Assembly: GCF_004765815.2 (NCBI RefSeq)
Contig: NZ_SBIS02000012.1
Span: forward strand, 124,001-188,000
Direction of reading: 5' to 3'
Origin: Halorussus salinus
GTDB lineage: Archaea > Halobacteriota > Halobacteria > Halobacteriales > Haladaptataceae
Length of the DNA stretch: 64,000 bases
Positions 1,766-64,000 of this stretch are shown here, one piece after another (the first letter of the stretch is position 1; every line of letters starts with the position of its first letter). Below the pieces are notes generated by a model, which was given only the letters and a program-made list of their open reading frames with translations, did no database searches and was not told the DNA's origin. The translations under genes and the position numbers were made by a program.

Positions 1766-1807
1766 CTAACCAATGACTGCAGCCGCAGGATAGTAGTCAT
1801 TGGTTAG
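1766..1807. repeat. Dispersed inverted repeat IR-a (CTAACCAATG-N22-CATTGGTTAG)
   Basis: Both 10-bp arms are perfect, and symmetry extends to 15 bp per arm at 1764-1778 and 1795-1809. It lies about 50 bp beyond the end of the CRISPR array. It is one of 11 members in the window, and its 22-bp middle is unrelated to the others. Confidence 0.9.
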
Positions 1808-1989: not shown

Positions 1990-2207
1990 TCTGTTGCATC
2001 ACGACACGCCAGTACAATCCTCCTCAGGTGTGTTTTGCCCCGGCCACAGACGTTGTTGGCGGTCATTTCCCTAGCCCACCCCGTCCGTATCTACCGCTGG
2101 ACACCGCTGGAACTGACACACGCACAAGTAACCGTCCGGTGTCACCGCCACGAGGAGCCACTGTCGAGGGTGGGCTACATGTCGTGGCGGATCCTGTTCG
2201 CGTTTGA
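1990..2207 (+). pseudogene. IS200/IS605-family remnant (probable tnpB 3' end / right-end region)
   Basis: This segment is clearly homologous to 26633-26868. Both plus-strand frames share the residue patterns TxQYNP, TDxVGG, LPLDxAG and PPRGATxxGGLHVV, and the DNA is close throughout, including the block CACCGCCACGAGGAGCCAC. At 26475 the second copy follows the start of an IS200-type tnpA. Haloarchaeal tnpB genes often end in such low-complexity tails overlapping the guide-RNA scaffold, so a degraded tnpB 3' end is likely. No transposase catalytic motif remains here. The 1810-1990 stretch before it shows nothing recognisable. Confidence 0.5.
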
Positions 2208-2268
2208 CCGTGGTGGTTCGTGGGGGAGATATGTCCCTCTCGGGGCTTCTTTTGGCCCGGCCATCCTG

Positions 2269-3177
2269 TTATCCGGCCACCTCGTCTGTTGCCGGGCCAC
2301 CGGTCTCGCCGAGCGATGGTTCACCGGGCAGGTCAGCCTCCTCAGTTAACACCACGACGTTCTCTTTGTAGGTCAAGCCGTCTGTGGTGCGTTTTTTCTG
2401 CGTCGTGATAAGTCGGTGCTTGCTCAACTCGGTCATCGCGTCAAGCGTCCGCCGCGCCAATTCTTGCGCGTAATTCTTCGAGACGCCCTCCTCGTTCGCG
2501 CGAATCCAGTCCGCAAGATCGGACGACTTCAGGTAGACACGCCAGCCGCTACTCCCGCTGGTCCAGAGGTTGTATCGCCCCGGGTCGTCACGCTCCCGCC
2601 ACGCCTTCGCGGCTAGCTCGTCGGGCTTGCGGTTAGTAACGCTCGCGAGCATTTCATCGTCGTAGCGAGCGAGTCGCTGGATCGGCAGCAAGTCGGCCGT
2701 CGAGCGCGCAACTGCACCGCCACGGTCGAGCGCATCCTCCTCGCCGGGAAGGCGGGCATACTGGTTGCCATTGTCTTTCGTGATGCGTTCGACGCGTTCA
2801 CCGTCTACGTCCAGAAGTTCGTCCATGATGTTTGGTTCGACGTTGTCATACTGGAGGTGGGCGCTCTTCTCTAACTCGCGGGATTGCAGTTCCGCGATCA
2901 TTGAGCGCGTCCCGTTCGCCTTCGCTTCGAGCGCGCTCAGGCGTGCGTCGTGTTCTGTGGTGACCGTTTCCTCCCGTTCTGCAAGTCGAGATTCAGCCTT
3001 GCGTCGAGCGTCGCGTTCGTTGGCTAGTTCGTCTCGGAGGTCCTCAACCTCGCGTTCGAGGTCGGCGATGCGTTCGTGGAGGTCTGCAGTTGCTTGTTGG
3101 ATTCGCTGTTCGACGAGTTCGTCGAGCTGGTCGTTGGTTGGAGTCTGCGATTCGTCGGTGGGGATGTCTGTCGTCAT
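2269..3177 (-). CDS. Coiled-coil protein, last gene of operon B1
   Basis: A 302-aa acidic protein. Residues about 15-95 form a long charged heptad-type coiled coil rich in E, R, D and L (from about QLDELVEQRI to LEAKANG). The rest is globular, with a conserved stretch around NIMDELLDVDGERVERITKD and a C-terminal helical part with two lysine/arginine-rich turns (STHRLITTQKK-like). It is about 90% similar to the 302-aa protein at 26912-27820; most differences fall in the coiled coil. It follows the PadR-like gene by 88 bp. I do not recognise the family. The coiled coil beside DNA-binding partners suggests an oligomeric structural or partition-type role, which is inference only. Confidence 0.85.
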   Translation of the reverse strand: MTTDIPTDESQTPTNDQLDELVEQRIQQATADLHERIADLEREVEDLRDELANERDARRKAESRLAEREETVTTEHDARLSALEAKANGTRSMIAELQSRELEKSAHLQYDNVEPNIMDELLDVDGERVERITKDNGNQYARLPGEEDALDRGGAVARSTADLLPIQRLARYDDEMLASVTNRKPDELAAKAWRERDDPGRYNLWTSGSSGWRVYLKSSDLADWIRANEEGVSKNYAQELARRTLDAMTELSKHRLITTQKKRTTDGLTYKENVVVLTEEADLPGEPSLGETGGPATDEVAG

Positions 3178-3202
3178 GGGTTCTCGGGAGTGTGAGTTGG
3201 GT

Positions 3203-3275
3203 GGTTCGGTGGCGATACCGCTAGGCGTGCATGCGCGCGAACGGACGAACTAAGGGGCGGCTGGGCTACCCGCGG
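3203..3275 (-). promoter_or_regulatory. Conserved intergenic element inside operon B1
   Basis: The gap between the PadR-like gene and the coiled-coil gene is almost as conserved as coding sequence when compared with copy 2 at 27850-27921. Shared blocks include GGTGGCGATACCGCTAGGCG and TGCATGCGCGCGAA, then CTGGGCTACCCGCG. CGGT/ACCG can form a short hairpin and TGCATGC is palindromic. An internal promoter, operator or processing site is likely. Confidence 0.45.
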
Positions 3276-3655
3276 GACCGCCCACGGAGACACTCAGTCG
3301 GCAGACTCGCAGGGAGTTCCGCCTCGGGAACGTCGATATCGAGCGACGTAGCACTCCGCACAAACAACTGCGTCAGAAGACTTCGGCCCTCCTCGGTGAG
3401 GTCGCAGGTGAATCCCCGCGCGTCGTCAGGGTGGTCGCGCTTGGTGAGGAAGCCTCGCTCGACGAGTTCGTTGAGTCGCGGATAGAACTGGCCGCCCTCG
3501 GTATTCGTCTGGCCGAGTGCTTCGAGTTCCTCCATGACATCCGTCCCAACCGGAGTGTCGTTCGCTTGGTTCGCGCGGTAGGTCGCCAGCAAGAGATCGC
3601 GTTTATAGCTCGTGAGGTCGGCCGCTGTCGTCGCGATTGAGCGAGACGGCTTCAT
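3266..3655 (-). CDS. PadR-like winged-helix regulator, operon B1
   Basis: A 129-aa protein. The central 80 residues have the PadR/phage-repressor layout: a first helix YKRDLLLATYRANQ, a recognition region ending QFYPRLNELVERGFLTK, and a wing with GFTCDLTEEGRSLL. The C-terminus is short and variable. Its ATG overlaps the stop of the 52-aa zinc gene by 4 bp, so the two are translationally coupled. The paralogue in module B2 is 27910-28308. It probably binds DNA as a dimer; the target could be the operon's own upstream region. The family call is from motif shape, not a search. Confidence 0.8.
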   Translation of the reverse strand: MKPSRSIATTAADLTSYKRDLLLATYRANQANDTPVGTDVMEELEALGQTNTEGGQFYPRLNELVERGFLTKRDHPDDARGFTCDLTEEGRSLLTQLFVRSATSLDIDVPEAELPASLPTECLRGRSRG

Positions 3656-3810
3656 CGACTCTCACCTCCCGTGCGAGCAGTAGGTCCGCCGGGGAGTGTG
3701 CAACCACAGGGTTGGACCGTATGCTGGCTCGGGCTATCGGCAGTGATCGCGGCAATCTTCGAATTACAACACGGACACTCACCATCTTCCAGCGTCGTCG
3801 TGGTACTCAT
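3652..3810 (-). CDS. Small zinc-ribbon protein, 52 aa, operon B1
   Basis: The start is the ATG at 3808-3810 (MSTTTTLEDGE), not the longer upstream reading. This start gives an ATGA overlap with the gene before it and matches the copy at 28305-28463. It holds one CPCC pair and a CGC motif (ECPCCNSKI, QPCGCTLP), enough for a single metal site. The two copies differ mainly in the last 15 residues, so the N-terminal zinc part is constrained. No known family was recognised. Confidence 0.8.
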   Translation of the reverse strand: MSTTTTLEDGECPCCNSKIAAITADSPSQHTVQPCGCTLPGGPTARTGGESR

Positions 3811-4199
3811 TGGCTGGTCACCTCCTCGTTCGCCCGGCGGATCCGCTGGCAGAACTGACACGGCGCGTACCGCTGTGCTTGGGCTTCGGCGCGCGGGAGT
3901 TCTTCGAGTTTCTTGTGATCGACCGGGCAAAGTGGGTTGTCGTTCTCGTTGGTTTCGTGGTAGGCGTACGACCGCTGGCCGGTCGAGCGAATAACCAGCA
4001 CCGTTTCCTGTGCTGGATAGCGGTCGTTGTTGATTCGCGCATCGAGATCTTCCCGCGTCGGGTTATCCACCGTCTCCGGGTCCGGACAGGTGTGACTAGA
4101 GAGTTGAATCGTTGGTGTGCCACAATTGTCGCACACGTCGAACGTCTCGGGAATCGCGTCCGAGAGATCCGGGCCAACCTCCTCGATAGCGTGCGTCAT
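3807..4199 (-). CDS. Zinc-finger protein, 130 aa, operon B1
   Basis: Two metal-binding parts are visible. The N-terminal CDNCGTPT with a downstream SSHTCPD gives a CxxC...HxC set near residues 23-40. The C-terminal LCPVDH and APCQFCQRIRRA give a second set near residues 88-120. The middle (YAYHETNENDNP) is polar. It overlaps both neighbours by 4 bp. Copy 2 is 28460-28852, and a relic of the C-terminus survives at 63046-63129. A DNA- or RNA-binding accessory role within the operon is plausible but unproven. Confidence 0.85.
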   Translation of the reverse strand: MTHAIEEVGPDLSDAIPETFDVCDNCGTPTIQLSSHTCPDPETVDNPTREDLDARINNDRYPAQETVLVIRSTGQRSYAYHETNENDNPLCPVDHKKLEELPRAEAQAQRYAPCQFCQRIRRANEEVTSQ

Positions 4200-4630
4200 G
4201 ACTCGCCCTCCCGTTCGGTCACGTCGGCGTTCGTCTGCTCCGGAACAGATTCCGTCTCCTCGGTTGCATCTACATGGTCTGGGTCGATTTGGTCCGGAGC
4301 AGATTCGATTTCGAGTTCGACGCCGGTCTGTCGTGCGCGCCGACGGGCGAACGCTTCCAGCAGGGTACGTGTTCGGTCGGTGGTCGCGTACTCGTTGGTG
4401 CGGTCGTCCTTCTTGCCCTTCCGGAGGAGACCGCGCTTGATGAGCTGGTCGAGATTCTGGTAGAGTCGAGAATGATTGAGATCATCGTCGTGTTGTTCAT
4501 CGAGGTAGGCCTTGATGGCGAGACCCTTCGGCGGGGTGTCATTGTCGCGTTCCAGTGCGCGGACCGCATACAGGAGGTCGCGCTCGAACGCTCGGAGATC
4601 GCCAACCGACGCAGAGGTGTCCGCGGTCAT
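4196..4630 (-). CDS. PadR-like winged-helix regulator, first gene of operon B1
   Basis: A 144-aa protein. Residues 10-90 form a winged helix: ERDLLYAVRALERDNDT, then HSRLYQNLDQLIKRGLLRK, then the wing with NEYATTDRTRTLL. The C-terminal 45 residues are acidic and low in complexity. It is the first gene after the divergent regulatory region and overlaps the next gene by 4 bp. The copy-2 protein (28849-29220) lacks about 20 residues of the acidic tail. It resembles the other PadR-like gene of the operon in layout, so the operon encodes two different members of the same fold. Confidence 0.8.
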   Translation of the reverse strand: MTADTSASVGDLRAFERDLLYAVRALERDNDTPPKGLAIKAYLDEQHDDDLNHSRLYQNLDQLIKRGLLRKGKKDDRTNEYATTDRTRTLLEAFARRRARQTGVELEIESAPDQIDPDHVDATEETESVPEQTNADVTEREGES

Positions 4631-11082: not shown

Positions 11083-11457
11083 CTATGTCTCGCTTCCTTC
11101 CTCGGGTAAGCTGTACTCCTCTACCTCGACACCTGTCAGCACCAACTGCGTCGTCTGCGAAGAGGCCACTTGCATCACGCCGAGGAACGCGGTGGCCACA
11201 ACCTCGACTGTCCCGAGCGTGGGCGTTTCGAGCGTCCCGCCGTTACACTCCCGACAATAGACCCGCGGGAGGTTCCACTGGTCGTGCCCGGCGGTGCGAT
11301 ACGCGTACACGGTCACACAGTGGCCGTCATGCAGGTCCCGACCGCAACAGCAACACGTGCCTCTCGCACCTTCCAACCCGACCTGCAGTCCGGTCAATAC
11401 CTGCTCGACGTCAGTCTCGACGCACACGGTCTCGGACTCCGACTGGGCGAACGCCAT
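11083..11457 (-). CDS. Zinc protein, 124 aa, last gene of cassette A1
   Basis: The core is GTCCCCGRDL (four consecutive Cys) followed by H/Y-rich VTVYAYRTAGHDQWNLPRVY and CRECNGG, so at least two CxxC pairs can bind zinc. The N-terminal ETVCVETDVEQVLTGLQVGL is a conserved helix. It starts directly after the TAG of the 58-aa gene with no gap. Near-identical copies are 33409-33783 and 63766-64000, and a shrunken relic is at 61553-61695. Function unknown; nucleic-acid binding is plausible from the zinc sites. Confidence 0.88.
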   Translation of the reverse strand: MAFAQSESETVCVETDVEQVLTGLQVGLEGARGTCCCCGRDLHDGHCVTVYAYRTAGHDQWNLPRVYCRECNGGTLETPTLGTVEVVATAFLGVMQVASSQTTQLVLTGVEVEEYSLPEEGSET

Positions 11458-11634
11458 CTAGCGACACCTCCAACAGACGACGCCCTCACCACTCGTCTGA
11501 CCGCCGCACTCGGGACAGTCGGCAACATTAAGCTCTAGTTCCGTGCGCTGGGCTTGTTCTTCGGCGCGCTCCATACGCTCGCACTCACGGCAGATCCGGT
11601 GAGGAGTCGCGCATCCGCATTTCCGACACCCCAT
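11458..11634 (-). CDS. Zinc-ribbon protein, 58 aa, cassette A1
   Basis: The start is the ATG at 11632-11634 (MGCRKCGC), supported by the same position in all three copies and by the preceding ORF ending 2 bp before it. Four Cys clusters are present: CRKCGC, CRECER, CPECGG and CWRC, enough for two zinc sites. A charged helix (ERMERAEEQA) separates them. It resembles a stand-alone double zinc ribbon of the kind seen in transcription or translation factors; no family was recognised. Confidence 0.88.
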   Translation of the reverse strand: MGCRKCGCATPHRICRECERMERAEEQAQRTELELNVADCPECGGQTSGEGVVCWRCR

Positions 11635-11636
11635 AC

Positions 11637-11708
11637 TTACTCCTCCGAATGGTCCGCAGATAGTTCGCTGGCGATACGCTTTTCTTGCGCTAGTGGTAAC
11701 TCGAACAT
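11637..11708 (-). CDS. 23-codon ORF leading cassette A1
   Basis: ATG at 11706-11708, TAA at 11637-11639, then GT and the ATG of the zinc-ribbon gene. The pattern MFExxLxxEKRxAS is kept in the other two copies (24 codons at 33963-34037 and 63511-63585), while third codon positions vary. The ATG follows directly on the leader segment GAAAGCC, so its translation may depend on how the leader folds. It could be a microprotein or a leader peptide that couples translation into the downstream genes. Confidence 0.6.
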   Translation of the reverse strand: MFELPLAQEKRIASELSADHSEE

Positions 11709-11808
11709 GGCTTTCACGCTGGTTGCAGAAAGCCGTGGTCTCGGGTGTTGTCGCACCCGCGGACCGTTCTTCCGAAAAGAAGAACACGTCCGTGTAGCCC
11801 CGGCTTTC
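11709..11808 (-). ncRNA. Structured 5' leader of cassette A1 (possible RNA switch)
   Basis: Reading leftward, segment A is GAAAGCCG (11808-11801), segment B is CGGCTTTC (11735-11728) and segment C is GAAAGCC (11715-11709). B can pair with A, enclosing two hairpins (GTTCTTC/GAAGAAC at 11785-11779 with 11772-11766, and GGGTG/CACCC at 11758-11754 with 11747-11743 in genome order), or with C, which abuts the ATG of the 23-codon ORF. The same three segments and both hairpins occur in the other two copies, with changed loops and changed stem bases. A TATA-like TTTAAGTTAGATA lies about 25 bp before segment A, so the RNA probably begins there. Confidence 0.6.
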
Positions 11809-11827
11809 CTAACTATAATTATGCATG

Positions 11828-11920
11828 TATCTAACTTAAACCTACTGGAAGAAAAACACAAGATAGAGCGCCCACACCGCGAGAAAACACTCATTTCACA
11901 CCACCAGAATTGTACTTAAA
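11828..11920 (-). promoter_or_regulatory. Promoter region of cassette A1
   Basis: The element TATCTAACTTAAA at 11828-11840 (TATA-like on the minus strand) and a second conserved block TTTCACACCACCAGAA...TACTTAAA at 11894-11920 both recur at the same places before cassettes A2 and A3. The second block could be an upstream activator site or another promoter. Confidence 0.5.
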
Positions 11921-11959
11921 CTGCACTCTACAGTCCGCCCCGGACCGGAGTATGTCGAG

Positions 11960-12001
11960 CTAACCAATGAAGGCCGTTTTCCGTTCGGCATCATTGGTTA
12001 G
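11960..12001. repeat. Dispersed inverted repeat IR-b
   Basis: CTAACCAATG at 11960-11969 and CATTGGTTAG at 11992-12001, 22-bp middle starting AAGGCCG. It lies about 40 bp upstream of the cassette A1 promoter block. Its middle is partly shared with IR-e, which holds the same place before cassette A2. Confidence 0.9.
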
Positions 12002-12394
12002 TGAAATCGAGACAGATAGAATATATCTTGAAGTCCTCGAAAACGCGTCAGCTGTCACGATTTTCCCGTGCCCGAGGAGGTGTACATACCTCTCAGAATA
12101 TCTCGTCGGTCATCGACGCCCTCCGCAGCTTCCCTAACTCGGTGTACCGATGCGCTTGCGGGTACTCCTCGCGGAAGGAATCGCTGGCAACTCGTAGTCA
12201 TTTAGGGCGTGCCCGCCGACTTCTATGGGGACTACACTGATGGCGACCACGATGACGTCGCGTCGATTTGGGGCATCTCCCGCGGTGGTGTGGACACGTA
12301 CGGCGACAAGATGAAAGTAAGAGGGTAGCTGTTGGGAAACTGTTACCAATGAGTGTATTATAATAGGTACGCAGTGAACCGGAGCGCGACTGTA
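12002..12394. other. Gene-poor stretch with conserved flank of cassette A and decayed coding remnants
   Basis: The 25-bp block around GATTTTCCCGTGCCCGAGG at 12056-12080 is shared with 34404-34428, also just beyond the cassette's inverted repeat, and may mark the cassette's outer edge. Farther right, a plus frame at about 12207-12329 (ADFYGDYTDGDHDDVASIWG and onward to a stop) looks like the end of a former protein but has no start. I see no intact gene. Confidence 0.4.
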
Positions 12395-26632: not shown

Positions 26633-26868
26633 ACCAATACATCACGACGCACCAGTACAACCCTGCTCGGGCGTGTTCCACCCCGACCACAGACGCTGTT
26701 GGCGGTCGAACCTCTACCTCACCTTCTCCACGGTTGCCGCTGGATGCCGCTGGAATTGACAGACATACTAGTAGCCAGACGGTGCCACCGCCACGAGGAG
26801 CCACCCTAAGGGGCGGGCTACATGTCGTGACGGATCCAGACCGCGACCGGTTAGGGGTGGTTGCGTGA
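26633..26868 (+). pseudogene. IS200/IS605-family remnant, second copy
   Basis: It is homologous to 1990-2207 along its length and precedes operon B2 as that copy precedes operon B1. The frame ends PDRDRLGVVA with a stop at 26866-26868. The remnant was therefore part of module B before the module was duplicated. Confidence 0.55.
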
Positions 26869-26911
26869 GAGGTGTCTCCCTCTCGGGGCCTGATCTGGTC
26901 CGGCCACTCCG

Positions 26912-27820
26912 TTATCCGGCCACCTCGTCTGTTGCCGGACTCCCTGCGTCACCCAGCGACGGTTCGCCTGGTAGGTCGGCCTCCTCGGTCAACACCACGA
27001 CGTTCTCCTTGTAGGTCAAGCCGTCTGTGGTGCGTTTCTTCTGGGTGGTGATGAGCCGGTGCTTGCTTAATTCGGCCATCGCGTCGAGGGTGCGCCGTGC
27101 CAATTCTTGGGCATAGTTCTTCGACACACCTTCTTCGTTCGCGCGAATCCAATCAGCAAGATCTGACGACTTCAGGTAAACACGCCATCCGCTACTCCCG
27201 CTCGTCCATAACTGGTATCGGCCGGAATCGTCACGCTCCCGCCATGCCTTCGCTGCAAGCTCGTCGGGCTTGCGGTTAGTAACGCTCGCGAGCATTTCAT
27301 CATCGTAGCGAGCGAGGCGTTGGATCGGTAGCAGGTCGGCCGTCGAGTGGGCGACTGCGCCACCGCGATTGAGTGCGTCTTCCTCGCCGGGCAGGCGGGC
27401 GTAGTGGTTGCCGTCGTCTTTCGTAATCCGTTCGACACGCTCACCATCCACGTCGAGAAGCTCGTCCATGATGTTCGGCTCGACGTTCTCGTACGCGAGG
27501 TGCGCGCCTTTCTCTAGCTCGCGGGACTGCAGTTCCGCGATCATTGAGCGGGTGCCGTTTGCTTTCGCTTCGAGGGCGTTGAGTCGCGCGTCGTGTTCGC
27601 CTTCGACTGTCTCCTCTATATCTGTGAGTCGCGTTTCGGCCTCGCGGCGCGCCTCGCGCTCTTGGGAGAGTTCGTCGCGGAGTTCGGTTACTTCTGCTTC
27701 AAGGTCGGCAATCTGTTCTCGGAGGTCGGCGGTCGCTTCCTGAATGCGTTGGTCAATGAGTTCGTCAAGCTGTTCGTCGGCCGGAGTCTGCGATTCGTCG
27801 GTGGGGGTGTCGGTGGTCAT
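26912..27820 (-). CDS. Coiled-coil protein, last gene of operon B2
   Basis: A 302-aa protein, the same length as its paralogue at 2269-3177. The C-terminal 190 residues are almost unchanged, while the coiled coil (residues 15-95) has many conservative swaps that keep the heptad pattern. Synonymous differences are frequent, so the duplication is not recent. The role is unknown, as for copy 1. Confidence 0.85.
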   Translation of the reverse strand: MTTDTPTDESQTPADEQLDELIDQRIQEATADLREQIADLEAEVTELRDELSQEREARREAETRLTDIEETVEGEHDARLNALEAKANGTRSMIAELQSRELEKGAHLAYENVEPNIMDELLDVDGERVERITKDDGNHYARLPGEEDALNRGGAVAHSTADLLPIQRLARYDDEMLASVTNRKPDELAAKAWRERDDSGRYQLWTSGSSGWRVYLKSSDLADWIRANEEGVSKNYAQELARRTLDAMAELSKHRLITTQKKRTTDGLTYKENVVVLTEEADLPGEPSLGDAGSPATDEVAG

Positions 27821-27849
27821 CGGTTCTCGGGAGTGATCTTGGGTGATTC

Positions 27850-27921
27850 GGTGGCGATACCGCTAGGCGTGCATGCGCGCGAAGAGGAGCGAACAAGGGG
27901 GCGTCTGGGCTACCCGCGTGT
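27850..27921 (-). promoter_or_regulatory. Conserved intergenic element inside operon B2
   Basis: It keeps the same GGTGGCGATACCGCTAGGCG and TGCATGCGCGCGAA blocks as 3203-3275, with a short length change after them. Confidence 0.45.
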
Positions 27922-28308
27922 TCTCCCGTGTAGGCGTCGCTGTCGCGGACACGATGGGTCGGCGGGCAACTCGAACTCGGCCACGTCGATATCGAGTGAG
28001 GCAGCGGTCCGCACAAACAACTGGGTAAGGAGAATCCGGCCCTCCTCGGTGAGGTCGCAGGTGAATCCGCGTGCGTCGTCAGGGTGGTCGCTCTTCGTCA
28101 GGAACCCCTGCTCGACGAGTTCGTTGAGCCGCGGGTAGAACTGGCCGCCCTCGGTGTTGGTCTGGCCGAGTGTTTCGAGTTCGTCCTTGACATCCGTCCC
28201 AACCGGTGTGTCGTTCGCTTGGTTCGCGCGGTAGGTCGCCAGCAGGAGGTCGCGTTTGTAGCTCGTGAGATCGGCCGCCATCTCCGTGAGTGAACGAAAC
28301 GAATTCAT
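27910..28308 (-). CDS. PadR-like winged-helix regulator, operon B2
   Basis: A 132-aa protein, paralogue of 3266-3655. The DNA-binding core is conserved almost exactly (YKRDLLLATYRANQANDTPV, QFYPRLNELVEQGFLTK). The N-terminal nine residues and the C-terminal 20 differ. Its start overlaps the stop of the 52-aa zinc gene by 4 bp. The near-identical recognition helix suggests both copies bind the same site. Confidence 0.8.
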   Translation of the reverse strand: MNSFRSLTEMAADLTSYKRDLLLATYRANQANDTPVGTDVKDELETLGQTNTEGGQFYPRLNELVEQGFLTKSDHPDDARGFTCDLTEEGRILLTQLFVRTAASLDIDVAEFELPADPSCPRQRRLHGRTRG

Positions 28309-28463
28309 CGACGGTCACCTCCCGTGCGAGCAGTAGATTCCGTGGGCAGTGTGCAACCGCAGGGCTGGAGGGTGTGTTCCGTGGGACTATCGGCAGTGAT
28401 CGCGGCAATCTTCGAATTACAGCACGGACACTCACCATCTTCAAGCGTCGTCGTCGTACTCAT
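28305..28463 (-). CDS. Small zinc-ribbon protein, 52 aa, operon B2
   Basis: The ATG at 28461-28463 gives MSTTTTLEDGECPCCNSKIA, identical to copy 1 over the first 27 residues. The CPCC and CGC motifs are kept. It overlaps both neighbours by 4 bp. Confidence 0.8.
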   Translation of the reverse strand: MSTTTTLEDGECPCCNSKIAAITADSPTEHTLQPCGCTLPTESTARTGGDRR

Positions 28464-28852
28464 CGGTCGGTCACCTCCTCGTTCGCGCGGCGAATCCGCT
28501 GGCAGAACTGGCACGGCGCGTACCGCTGGTCTTGAGCGTCGGCGCGGGCGAGTTGTGTGAGGTCGTCGTGGTCCACCGGGCACAGCGGGGTATCGTCGTG
28601 GTCGGTCTCGTGGTAGGCGTACGTATTCGTCCGATTCGTCGTCCGGACGAGAACGGTGTCACTTGCGGGAAACGGATCCTGTTCGGTGCGGCGATCCAGT
28701 TCCTCGCGCGTCGGGTCAGCAACCGTCTCCGGGTCCGGACACGTATGGCTCGACAACTGGACCGTCGGCGTTCCACACCCGTCGCACACATCGAACGTCT
28801 CGGGAATAGCTTCCGAGAGGTCCGGCCCGACCTCCTCGACCGCCTGCGTCAT
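28460..28852 (-). CDS. Zinc-finger protein, 130 aa, operon B2
   Basis: The paralogue of 3807-4199 with the same length and Cys/His spacing (CDGCGTPT, SSHTCPD, LCPVDH, APCQFCQRIRRA). The middle 40 residues have diverged strongly, which points to selection on the metal sites and ends only. Confidence 0.85.
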   Translation of the reverse strand: MTQAVEEVGPDLSEAIPETFDVCDGCGTPTVQLSSHTCPDPETVADPTREELDRRTEQDPFPASDTVLVRTTNRTNTYAYHETDHDDTPLCPVDHDDLTQLARADAQDQRYAPCQFCQRIRRANEEVTDR

Positions 28853-29220
28853 GACTCGCCCTCCCGTTCGAAGGCGTTCGTTTGGCTCGGGGCAGAATCG
28901 GACTCAAGTTCGATGCCGGTCTGTTCTGCACGTCGGCGCGCGAATGTATTCAGCAGGATGCGGGCTTGCTCAGTCGTCGCATACTCGTTGGTGCGGCCAT
29001 CGCGTTCGGCCTTCTCCAGCAACCCGCGCTCAACGTGTTCATCTAAATTCTGGTACAGCCGCGAATGATTAATCTCCTCGGGGTACTCGGTATCGAGATA
29101 CTGCTTGATTGCGAGGCCCTTCGGTGGACTGTCGCGACGTTCGAGCGCCCGGACCGCGAACAAGAGATCGCGCTCGAACGCACGGAGGTCCGCGACCGAC
29201 CAAGAGGAGTCCACGCTCAT
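28849..29220 (-). CDS. PadR-like winged-helix regulator, first gene of operon B2
   Basis: A 123-aa protein, paralogue of 4196-4630. The core is kept (ERDLLFAVRALERRDSPPKG, HSRLYQNLDEHVERGLLEK). The acidic tail is about 20 residues shorter than in copy 1. It is the first gene of the operon, 42 bp from the conserved hairpin block. Confidence 0.8.
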   Translation of the reverse strand: MSVDSSWSVADLRAFERDLLFAVRALERRDSPPKGLAIKQYLDTEYPEEINHSRLYQNLDEHVERGLLEKAERDGRTNEYATTEQARILLNTFARRRAEQTGIELESDSAPSQTNAFEREGES

Positions 29221-33144: not shown

Positions 33145-33186
33145 CTAACCAATGAGACCGTCTTTTGGATAGAACTCATTGGTTAG
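33145..33186. repeat. Dispersed inverted repeat IR-c
   Basis: CTAACCAATG at 33145-33154 and CATTGGTTAG at 33177-33186. The symmetry continues one or two bases inward (GAG / CTC). It lies downstream of cassette A2. The preceding stretch 32791-33144 shows no gene. Confidence 0.9.
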
Positions 33187-33267: not shown

Positions 33268-33309
33268 CTAACCAATGGATTCAACTCCGATAGCCGATTC
33301 ATTGGTTAG
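33268..33309. repeat. Dispersed inverted repeat IR-d
   Basis: CTAACCAATG at 33268-33277 and CATTGGTTAG at 33300-33309. It is 123 bp from IR-c and 100 bp from the end of cassette A2. Both arms are perfect. Confidence 0.9.
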
Positions 33310-42644: not shown

Positions 42645-42686
42645 CTAACCAATGAATCTGCAATCACTCACAGAAGCATTGGTTAG
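42645..42686. repeat. Dispersed inverted repeat IR-g
   Basis: CTAACCAATG at 42645-42654 and CATTGGTTAG at 42677-42686, between two convergent genes at the end of the transfer operon. Confidence 0.9.
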
Positions 42687-58693: not shown

Positions 58694-58734
58694 CTAACCA
58701 ATGAGCCGGTAGATCGAGAACATCCATTGGTTAG
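58694..58734. repeat. Dispersed inverted repeat IR-h
   Basis: CTAACCAATG at 58694-58703 and CATTGGTTAG at 58725-58734, with a 21-bp middle, one base shorter than in the other ten. It lies between two transfer-operon genes, beside a promoter-like AT-rich stretch. Confidence 0.9.
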
Positions 58735-61510: not shown

Positions 61511-61695
61511 GGACGAACGGGGACATTGTCTGTTGGCGGTGTCGCTAGCTGGTGTTCGCCGACGTTGAGACCGTATCCGTCGAGCAGATCCTCACGGACC
61601 TGCCGGAGCGAAGGGGCATCGAGATGCTCACTCTCGGGGCGGCCGAAGTCGTCGTCGGTATCCGACCTCGGTGGAAACGGTGCGCGCCCTACTAA
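61511..61695 (+). pseudogene. Relic of cassette A
   Basis: DIVCWRCR and a TAG at 61523-61549 are the end of the 58-aa zinc gene. Directly after, FADVETVSVEQILTDLPE and LTLGAAEVVVGI match both ends of the 124-aa gene (VETDVEQVLTGL, TLGTVEVVATAF), with the Cys-rich middle deleted. The frame ends at 61695 inside IR-i. The 61408-61510 stretch has nothing else. Confidence 0.65.
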
Positions 61696-61733
61696 CCAAT
61701 GAAGCGGTTTTCAGACAAGGACTCATTGGTTAG
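61692..61733. repeat. Dispersed inverted repeat IR-i
   Basis: CTAACCAATG at 61692-61701 and CATTGGTTAG at 61724-61733; both arms perfect. It begins at the very end of the cassette A relic. Confidence 0.9.
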
Positions 61734-61818: not shown

Positions 61819-61860
61819 CTAACCAATGAGTTCTATTCGGTAGACGGCGTCATTGGTTAG
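61819..61860. repeat. Dispersed inverted repeat IR-j
   Basis: CTAACCAATG at 61819-61828 and CATTGGTTAG at 61851-61860, 118 bp after IR-i, the same pair spacing as IR-c/IR-d (about 120 bp). The 61861-62075 stretch beyond it contains only a short GC hairpin (GAGCGCG/CGCGCTC). Confidence 0.9.
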
Positions 61861-63204: not shown

Positions 63205-63246
63205 CTAACCAATGCAGCTGGACGAAAACCATCTTTCATTGGTTAG
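63205..63246. repeat. Dispersed inverted repeat IR-k
   Basis: CTAACCAATG at 63205-63214 and CATTGGTTAG at 63237-63246. It lies about 50 bp upstream of the conserved promoter block of cassette A3, as IR-b and IR-e do for A1 and A2. Confidence 0.9.
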
Positions 63247-63299
63247 CGTGGCATACATCAAGGAGTTGCTTGGATTTTCGTGCGTGGTGTAGAACGCGA

Positions 63300-63393
63300 T
63301 TTAAGTATGATTCGAGTAGTGTGAAATGTTCGTTTTCTCGGGATAGAAGTGTTCTAGCTTGTGTTTTGCTTTCAATAGTTTTAACTTAGATAA
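63300..63393 (+). promoter_or_regulatory. Promoter region of cassette A3
   Basis: TTTAAGTATGATTCGAGTAG followed by TGTGAAA (63300-63326) is the conserved upstream block. TTTTAACTTAGATAA (63379-63393) is the TATA-like element, centred 26 bp before leader segment A. Confidence 0.5.
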
Positions 63394-63411
63394 GTACCTA
63401 GTAATAGTTAA

Positions 63412-63510
63412 GAAAGCCGGGGCTATTCGGACGTGTTCTCTCTTCTCGGAGAACGGTCCACGGGTGTTCCAGCACCCGAGACCACGGCTTTCCGTTGGAT
63501 GGAGAAAGCC
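63412..63510 (+). ncRNA. Structured 5' leader of cassette A3 (possible RNA switch)
   Basis: Segment A GAAAGCCG at 63412-63419, B CGGCTTTC at 63485-63492 and C GAAAGCC at 63504-63510. Inner hairpins are GTTCTC/GAGAAC and GGGTG/CACCC, as in A2. The leader is 99 bases against 100 in A1 and A2; the one-base change breaks any reading frame but not the stems. Confidence 0.6.
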
Positions 63511-63585
63511 ATGTTCGAGTCAACATTACGCGAAGAAAAGCGTATCGCCAGCGAACTGCCTGCGGTCTTTTCCGAGGGGGTGTAA
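63511..63585 (+). CDS. 24-codon ORF leading cassette A3
   Basis: ATG at 63511, TAA at 63583-63585, then GT and the ATG of the zinc gene. The N-terminal MFESTLREEKRIAS agrees with the other copies. Start directly after leader segment C. Confidence 0.6.
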   Translation: MFESTLREEKRIASELPAVFSEGV

Positions 63586-63587
63586 GT

Positions 63588-63764
63588 ATGGGGTGTCGCA
63601 AGTGCGGCTGTCCCACTCAGTACCGTATGTGTCGAGAGTGTGAGCGTATGGAGCGCGCCGAAGAACAAGCGCGGCGCTCGGATCTCGGGCTTGACGTTGC
63701 GGACTGTCCTGAGTGTGGCGGTGAGACGAGTGGTGAGGGCGTTGTCTGTTGGAGGTGCCGGTAG
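63588..63764 (+). CDS. Zinc-ribbon protein, 58 aa, cassette A3
   Basis: MGCRKCGCPTQYRMCRECER and CPECGGETSGEGVVCWRCR keep all four Cys clusters. It agrees with A1 and A2 at most positions. It ends one base before the next ATG. Confidence 0.88.
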   Translation: MGCRKCGCPTQYRMCRECERMERAEEQARRSDLGLDVADCPECGGETSGEGVVCWRCR

Positions 63765-63765
63765 G

Positions 63766-64000
63766 ATGGCGTATGCCGAACCCGACGGCGAGACCGTGCG
63801 CGTCGAAACCGACATCGAGCAGGTGTTGACCGGCCTGCAAGTCGGGGTGGACGGTGCGAGAGGCACGTGTTGCTGTTGCGGCCGGGACCTATATGACGGA
63901 CATTATGTGACCGTCTACGCGTATCGCACCGCCGGACACGACCAGTGGAACCTCCCACGGGCCTACTGTCGCGAGTGCAACGGTGGCAACATCGAGATAC
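63766..64000 (+). CDS. Zinc protein of cassette A3, cut by the window end
   Basis: MAYAEPDGETVRVETDIEQV, then GTCCCCGRDLYDGHYVTVYA and YCRECNGG, as in the 124-aa proteins of A1 and A2. About 78 codons are visible; the stop lies beyond the window. Confidence 0.88.
   Translation, partial: MAYAEPDGETVRVETDIEQVLTGLQVGVDGARGTCCCCGRDLYDGHYVTVYAYRTAGHDQWNLPRAYCRECNGGNIEI

Follow-up and report, generated by a model that had tools for sequence, protein, structure and literature searches.

A unit of coding and non-coding DNA that recurs at several places on one haloarchaeal plasmid raises the question of what its conserved parts do and whether its copies have spread by moving or are kept by selection, the two explanations named in the original prediction. 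The sequence comparisons presented here suggest that the unit (cassette A) is a multi-copy plasmid operon of three genes under two-level control, by a switch in its leader RNA and by a putative protein binding the inverted repeats (dyads) around it, a reading to which we assign a probability of roughly 0.6.

The unit and its plasmid

The window, meaning the whole analysed stretch of 64,000 nucleotides, covers bases 124001-188000 of contig C7 (G000:C7) of a Halorussus genome. The ends of the contig overlap by 19,341 identical bases, and the replicon is therefore a 199,725-bp circle. Self-BLASTN of the window gave cassette copies at 11083-11930, 33409-34259 and 63286-63997 with 81.7-81.9% identity to each other, and the coding parts match in all copies: a microprotein of 23-24 aa, a 58 aa protein with four CxxC-type pairs (zinc protein 1) and a 124 aa CxxC protein (zinc protein 2). 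Chance is excluded as the source of this similarity. The predicted three sites and collapsed copy were recovered, and the window shows only part of the set: the plasmid carries seven dispersed, non-tandem copies, at 26, 58, 85, 100, 135, 157 and 188 kb (the one at 85 kb decayed), plus the collapsed one. No coding copy of zinc protein 2 was found in the rest of the host genome.

Along transcription, the cassette consists of a conserved block (ACCTCCT...GGGCACGGGAAAATC), a 5' dyad, about 100-150 bp containing a second conserved stretch (TTTAAGTA), a TATA-like box, the leader, the microprotein from its AUG, zinc protein 1, zinc protein 2 and a pair of dyads about 126 bp apart. In copy 1, on the minus strand, the conserved ACCTCCTCGGGCACGGGAAAATC block (12056..12084) lies upstream of the 5' dyad (CTAACCAATG-N22-CATTGGTTAG, 11960..12001), and the TATA-like box (TTTAAG, 11835..11840), recognised by sequence and by a positional test over 42 loci, places the predicted transcription start at or just before the stem P1 of the leader. 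The structured leader RNA including the AUG spans 11706..11809 (match to covariance model R2 with E 4.6e-15, and fold), with the P1 5' strand at 11801-11809, the P1 3' strand at 11728-11735, a competing strand GAAAGCC at 11709-11715 and the AUG at 11706-11708. The microprotein (23 aa, MFELPLAQEKRIASELSADHSEE) is encoded at 11637..11708, zinc protein 1 at 11458..11634 and zinc protein 2 at 11083..11457; this copy is without the 3' dyad pair.

Copy 2, also on the minus strand, has its 5' dyad at 34308..34349, leader with AUG at 34035..34138 (R2 match E 3.7e-17), microprotein (24 aa) at 33963..34037, zinc protein 1 at 33784..33960, zinc protein 2 at 33409..33783, and proximal and distal 3' dyads at 33268..33309 and 33145..33186, spaced by 123 bp. 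Copy 3, on the plus strand, begins with the 5' dyad at 63205..63246, followed by the leader with AUG (63411..63513, R2 match E 2e-16), the microprotein (24 aa, 63511..63585), zinc protein 1 (63588..63764) and zinc protein 2 (63766..64000), which is cut at the window end and complete on the plasmid, where the 3' dyads follow it at C7 188241 and 188371. The collapsed copy retains the end of zinc protein 1 together with a zinc protein 2 that has an internal deletion (61527..61660, plus strand), then two dyads at 61692..61733 and 61819..61860 with a pair spacing of 127 bp. Conservation was also expected to reach past the inverted repeat to the block at 12056 and 34404, and this block is kept in four plasmid copies of the cassette. 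A gene X (VVFESGILYELA) upstream of three copies was considered as a part of the cassette and rejected, being partial, and downstream in other copies.

A folded RNA before the first gene

That the non-coding parts are conserved had been seen correctly from the sequence of the window, but the most general of them, the leader RNA, had been missed. In the ten Halorussus leaders, P1 is formed by GGAAAGCCG with CGGCUUUCC and closes a junction with hairpins P2 and P3, and GAAAGCC is repeated directly before the AUG. A covariance model built from the Halorussus leaders (R1) retrieved weak but structured relatives in the sister genus Haladaptatus and upstream of distant zinc protein 2 genes. In these relatives three strands have changed together, to GGAAGACCG, CGGUCUUCC and GAAGACC-AUG in one set and to AGAAGCGCGG, CCGCGCUUCU and AGAAGC-AAUG in another. 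Over 23 leaders from several genera, compensatory double changes are present in 11 out of 11 P1 pairs and 95.5% of the cells are paired, all shuffles and slides of the alignment being far lower. With a second model of P1 and P3 only (R2), 25 further loci had 95.0% of cells paired and double changes in 13 of 17 pairs, in an alignment that is itself fitted to the model. The leader is thus a conserved folded 5' domain with compensatory changes, as riboswitches are. When folded alone, 47 of 51 leaders give a three-way junction. Conservation is strongest in the junction and P3 (GGGUG...CACCC). Beyond Halorussus few unpaired nucleotides are strictly conserved, a pattern equally compatible with a protein-bound or purely structural element and with a ligand-binding aptamer.

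A TATA-like box is located 28-31 nt upstream of the RNA in 34 of the 42 loci, compared to 1-4 in displaced controls, and transcription should therefore begin at or just before P1. At the other end, three named plasmids have the RNA stopping on the annotated start codon: pHTUR03 of Haloterrigena turkmenica, a Natrinema plasmid and a Haladaptatus plasmid.

In many leaders of other genera we observed a near-perfect palindrome between the TATA box and the RNA, 45 nt upstream (L175, L176, L183, L185, L193 and others), for example CCAATTGCTACGTAGCAATTGG, which often differs from copy to copy. Palindromes with arms of at least 7 occur in 19% of the leaders versus 0.8% of shuffles, and they look like a set of distinct operators.

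Proposed control at the start codon

In this reading the leader acts in cis and opens with the 5' strand of the long stem P1, which closes the three-way junction with P2 and P3. The sequence of the P1 5' strand recurs in a third strand next to the AUG, which can instead pair with the P1 3' strand as hairpin P4. The start codon would be free when P1 is formed and sequestered when P4 is formed, and the leader would then function as a translational on/off switch.

The P4 pairs are GAAAGCC-AUG with GGCUUUC, GAAGACC-AUG with GGUCUUC and AGAAGC-AAUG with GCUUCU. In the 25 loci outside the model, the strand adjacent to the AUG fits the P1 3' strand of its own locus better than those of other loci (14.1 vs 11.8; 0 of 2000 swaps), a test that is independent of the model because P4 is absent from it, with the related loci themselves not independent of each other. 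In alignment A4 the paired cells and the covariation score of P4 beat all shuffles (0/500), the count of doubly changed pairs is not above them (132/500), and P4 is mismatched in several leaders. From the ten Halorussus leaders alone, the case for the apical pairing of P4 is weak. Taken over the alignments, both alternative pairings appear to co-vary, with mixed pair counts for P4, and the evidence for P4 is weaker than that for P1. By its structure, the leader has a predicted expression platform exclusive with its folded domain, as riboswitches do, the counts in A4 being mixed. The two-state start-codon switch is thus well supported by sequence comparison as a structure, and from the same comparison we infer it as a function. 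For the ten Halorussus leaders the predicted stability of P1 exceeds that of P4 by 1.4-9.7 kcal/mol, and therefore the default state is probably open and switching needs a further factor.

Leader occurrence and the genes behind it

Matches to R2 (E up to 0.01, with E-values from a shortened calibration) were found in 155 of 292 haloarchaeal genomes and in 57 of 77 genera, at most 13 per genome. Among about 100 non-haloarchaeal genomes of the same phylum there was none, a good though imperfect control, as these outgroup genomes tend to be smaller. The host genome has one more leader copy on another contig (locus L201, G000:C2:445123-445214), preceded by a palindrome and followed by a truncated ORF of 33 aa.

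In Halorussus the leaders precede the microprotein and zinc proteins 1 and 2, and in Haladaptatus a SWIM zinc finger protein of about 130 aa; a single plasmid record contains as many as 25 places similar to this, of which part were checked for the leader. Behind the leader in other genera is either a Cys-rich/basic ORF of 45-68 aa followed by a relative of zinc protein 2, or a short basic peptide with a small CxxC protein. The KRIA stretch of the microprotein recurs near the N-terminus of several SWIM-type and small leader ORFs that follow this RNA in other genera. By a crude motif, a zinc-motif ORF is downstream in 25 of the 42 loci and absent in 17, with 0 and 2 in the controls. No ribosomal protein gene was recognised by inspection of the ORFs downstream of the leader at 45 loci.

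Zinc protein 2 belongs to a haloarchaea-wide family, present in 126 of 391 haloarchaeal genomes, and its close relatives within Halorussus are mostly on plasmids (H. pelagicus, H. aquaticus, H. caseinilyticus, H. vallis, H. ruber). The zinc proteins gave no match above cut-off in Pfam and NCBIfam for the cassette proteins or in Pfam for the relatives. The AlphaFold2 model of zinc protein 2 (pLDDT 75) had no match at E 0.001 in a fold search of the PDB, where no solved relative was found either, and no phage record matched the protein. On the H. pelagicus plasmid (G020:C4 45817) the leader, zinc protein 2 and dyads are retained, but zinc protein 1 has been lost except for its last residues (CWRCR), to which the microprotein is fused. 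Small zinc finger proteins are also the likeness between the cassette and the haloarchaeal C(P)XCG zinc finger micro-proteins, including the brz-brb operon of Halobacterium salinarum, which according to the available parts of the reports are sometimes encoded with a small basic protein and act as regulators (PMC2253796, PMC3184054, PMC11241148). Unlike in the cassette, those same parts describe no structured leader for these genes (PMC2253796, PMC3184054, PMC11241148), and zinc protein 2 is larger than the C(P)XCG micro-proteins (124 aa) and forms its own unannotated family.

As the RNA family often precedes small zinc-protein genes, the signal may be the encoded zinc proteins, by feedback, or a metal or metabolite. 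A leader acting as a feedback element, in which the operon's own zinc protein binds the junction or P3 and brings about the closed-AUG state, with a protein and not a small molecule as the signal, is a possibility we hold tentatively. Zinc-binding proteins being the commonest downstream genes, the few strictly conserved unpaired bases and the strong conservation of the junction and P3 all agree with it, but the downstream proteins are of unrelated types (SWIM, CxxC, C2H2-like, basic microproteins), and therefore no single protein family explains all leader copies. It is improbable that the leader owes its structure to something else, such as a role in mRNA stability or processing into a small RNA, with P4 a coincidence: P1 is indeed much more stable than P4 in most Halorussus leaders, but in loci outside the model the third strand shows covariation with the P1 3' strand, and in nearly all loci it stands directly before the AUG. 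We favour the two-state switch, in which P1 and P4 would compete for the same strand.

Repeats at the cassette ends

The second level of control would be the dyads. On C7 they read CTAACCAATG-N20-24-CATTGGTTAG at 26 sites, 24 exact and two near-exact, and the same dyad was found neither on the other contigs of the host nor in other genera among the 292 genomes. Only one of the 26 is inside a called gene (18.3 expected) and 25 are intergenic, so that, like parS-type sites, they are repeated between the genes of one replicon and restricted to it. Nineteen are parts of cassettes and seven are solitary; those of the seven in the window are at 1766..1807, 38923..38964 (with one arm mismatch), 42645..42686 and 58694..58734. 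On both H. caseinilyticus plasmids nearly all dyad arms are CTAACCAACA, and on the G016:C3 plasmid they are CTAACCAAC, with a total length of 40-42 bp, the same as on C7. Zinc protein 2 has no match in the G016 genome, though its plasmid carries these related dyads.

A dyad that occurs with and without the cassette, and in own versions on the plasmids of two relatives, is therefore not simply a transposon end, and the inverted repeat is not an end peculiar to the cassette. The whole set changes in step on each replicon, as expected for the sites of a plasmid-encoded DNA-binding protein. The dyads are putative binding sites of a plasmid-encoded protein that reads only its own replicon and that would bind at both ends of the cassette. 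Zinc protein 1 as this reader is a weakened candidate, as the H. pelagicus plasmid keeps the dyads and has zinc protein 1 only as fragments.

The H. aquaticus plasmid has another dyad type, TCCGTCGACC, which was dropped as a replicon-specific analogue because it is part of a repeat of about 129 bp that is also on C7 and G013:C4. Copies of this repeat, 82-96% identical, were seen at C7 32967-33096 and 195830-195957, on G012:C4 and on G013:C4; the H. aquaticus copies carry the TCCGTCGACC inverted repeats, and on C7 the repeat is near CRISPR-like arrays and is possibly a CRISPR leader.

Selection versus movement

Between cassette copies, the DNA of zinc protein 2 is 79-86% identical, dN/dS is 0.09-0.25 within the plasmid and 0.07-0.25 over all pairs, and dS is 0.5-1.3. 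Because of this high synonymous divergence and low dN/dS the copies are old and under selection, and the intact ones are, judged from their sequences, under purifying selection, which bears out the strong selection considered originally. The zinc protein 2 tree is star-like, and amplification in place and a collection of copies are indistinguishable from it.

On the 5' side the copies cease to be homologous within a few hundred bp, and on the 3' side about 60 bp beyond the distal dyad, and they are therefore not parts of large segmental duplications. The left ends are ragged and not sharp. Among the contigs of relatives compared, no empty cassette site was found. The gene of 1898 aa next to the 85-kb copy is common to Halorussus aquaticus, and the homology continues from it into a likewise truncated cassette, so that the decayed H. 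aquaticus cassette is orthologous to the 85-kb copy of C7. With ragged left ends, no empty site and this shared neighbour, mobility is neither shown nor needed; the copies are old and not recently spread, and the suggestion of mobility is not upheld. As had been noted, there is no transposase inside the cassette.

A role of the dyads as segregation or DNA-organisation sites (parS-like), with the cassettes multiplied as their carriers and the operon as a passenger or a part of partition, seems unlikely, even if some of its features fit. The dyads are replicon-specific, intergenic and spread round the circle, their arm sequence changes in step on each plasmid, and one is located 11 bp beyond the gene following a ParA-like gene (a lead only). 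Against this, cassettes account for 19 of the 26 dyads, and a unit that served only to carry the sites would have no need of the conservation also seen in its leader, promoter and proteins. The dyads resemble ParB-parS and similar dispersed sites of a single replicon as several intergenic inverted repeats in a replicon-specific version, but the dyad arms are about two helical turns of variable sequence apart and most sites are at operon ends. Still less probable is a non-autonomous mobile element (MITE-like or cassette-like) with the dyads as its ends and a recombinase or transposase acting in trans. Seven dispersed copies, most with dyads at both ends, and a tyrosine recombinase gene recognised on the plasmid by inspection would suit such an element, and MITEs and integron cassettes share with cassette A the dispersed non-tandem copies and the inverted repeats at or near the ends. 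However, the arms are 20-24 bp apart around variable centres, unlike a recombination core, and end repeats confined to the element, as in IS elements, MITEs or integron cassettes, are not what is seen, since seven dyads on C7 are without a cassette and related ones are on the plasmid of a genome without zinc protein 2. No sharp left end, empty site or target duplication was seen, the copies diverged long ago, and, unlike MITEs and integron cassettes, the operon has its own promoter-like sequence. The amplified operon with dyads as putative protein-binding sites remains the reading we prefer.

Relation to known RNA regulators

The leader is a candidate for a new haloarchaeal cis-regulatory RNA, here used by an amplified plasmid operon with replicon-specific flanking dyads, and the structured RNA class to which it belongs is apparently previously undescribed. 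Rfam 15 holds no family matching it; the scan of the window gave no hit at gathering cut-offs, nor the leader region at E up to 1, and on six relatives' loci only tRNA and spurious miRNA were found, with just a chance antisense overlap of a few bases on the leader itself. No prior description was found in the open-access literature. Haloarchaeal messages are mostly leaderless. Control by structured leaders has been judged "not typical in haloarchaea" (PMC4983044), and as of 2021 the fluoride riboswitch was the only natural archaeal riboswitch experimentally determined (PMC8241225).

Like translational riboswitches (in archaea the fluoride riboswitch of Thermococcus kodakarensis), the leader has a folded cis-acting 5' junction domain and a mutually exclusive hairpin covering the translation start, but its sequestering strand adjoins the AUG itself and not a Shine-Dalgarno site. 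It resembles the autogenous leaders of ribosomal proteins in being structured and placed before small, often zinc-binding protein genes, where feedback is plausible, and differs from them in having several unrelated protein types and no ribosomal protein gene seen downstream. The leader may work like a translational riboswitch, a class defined by ligand binding, or like an autogenous leader. A wider proposal, that it is an undescribed haloarchaea-wide translational switch sensing a zinc-linked signal (metal or zinc proteins), multiplied to ten or more copies in some genomes, is speculative, and we consider it the weaker bet. If true, a covarying two-state leader in about half of the sampled haloarchaeal genomes would change the "not typical" picture, by adding a riboswitch-like layer of native control to a group in which structured leaders were considered untypical. 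It would also offer a tractable system for archaeal translation initiation, with the AUG-adjacent strand as a testable prediction for each copy. The replicon-specific dyads raise another question open to experiment: which plasmid protein recognises them.

Further plasmid modules

The plasmid carries other repeated features. A CRISPR array at 294-1720 of the window contains 20 copies of a 37-bp repeat (GTCACAGAACCCAGAAAACCCACGACGGGATTGAAAC) with 70-79 bp spacing, the last ones degenerate, and C7 has more array-like stretches (about 30, 113 and 194-195 kb) and, by inspection, two Cas1-like proteins. A second multi-copy module, at 1997-4217 and 26640-28870 of the window and near 18, 72, 91, 110, 127 and 151 kb on C7, carries a divergent winged-helix gene together with PadR-like proteins, a CxxC protein of 130 aa and a coiled-coil protein of 302 aa; its copies are 66-95% identical and it is also on the plasmids of relatives. 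An antitoxin/toxin-like module of 624 bp is duplicated at 97% identity (C7 108079-108702 and 188559-189182), and these duplicates are much younger than the cassettes, each being close to dyads.
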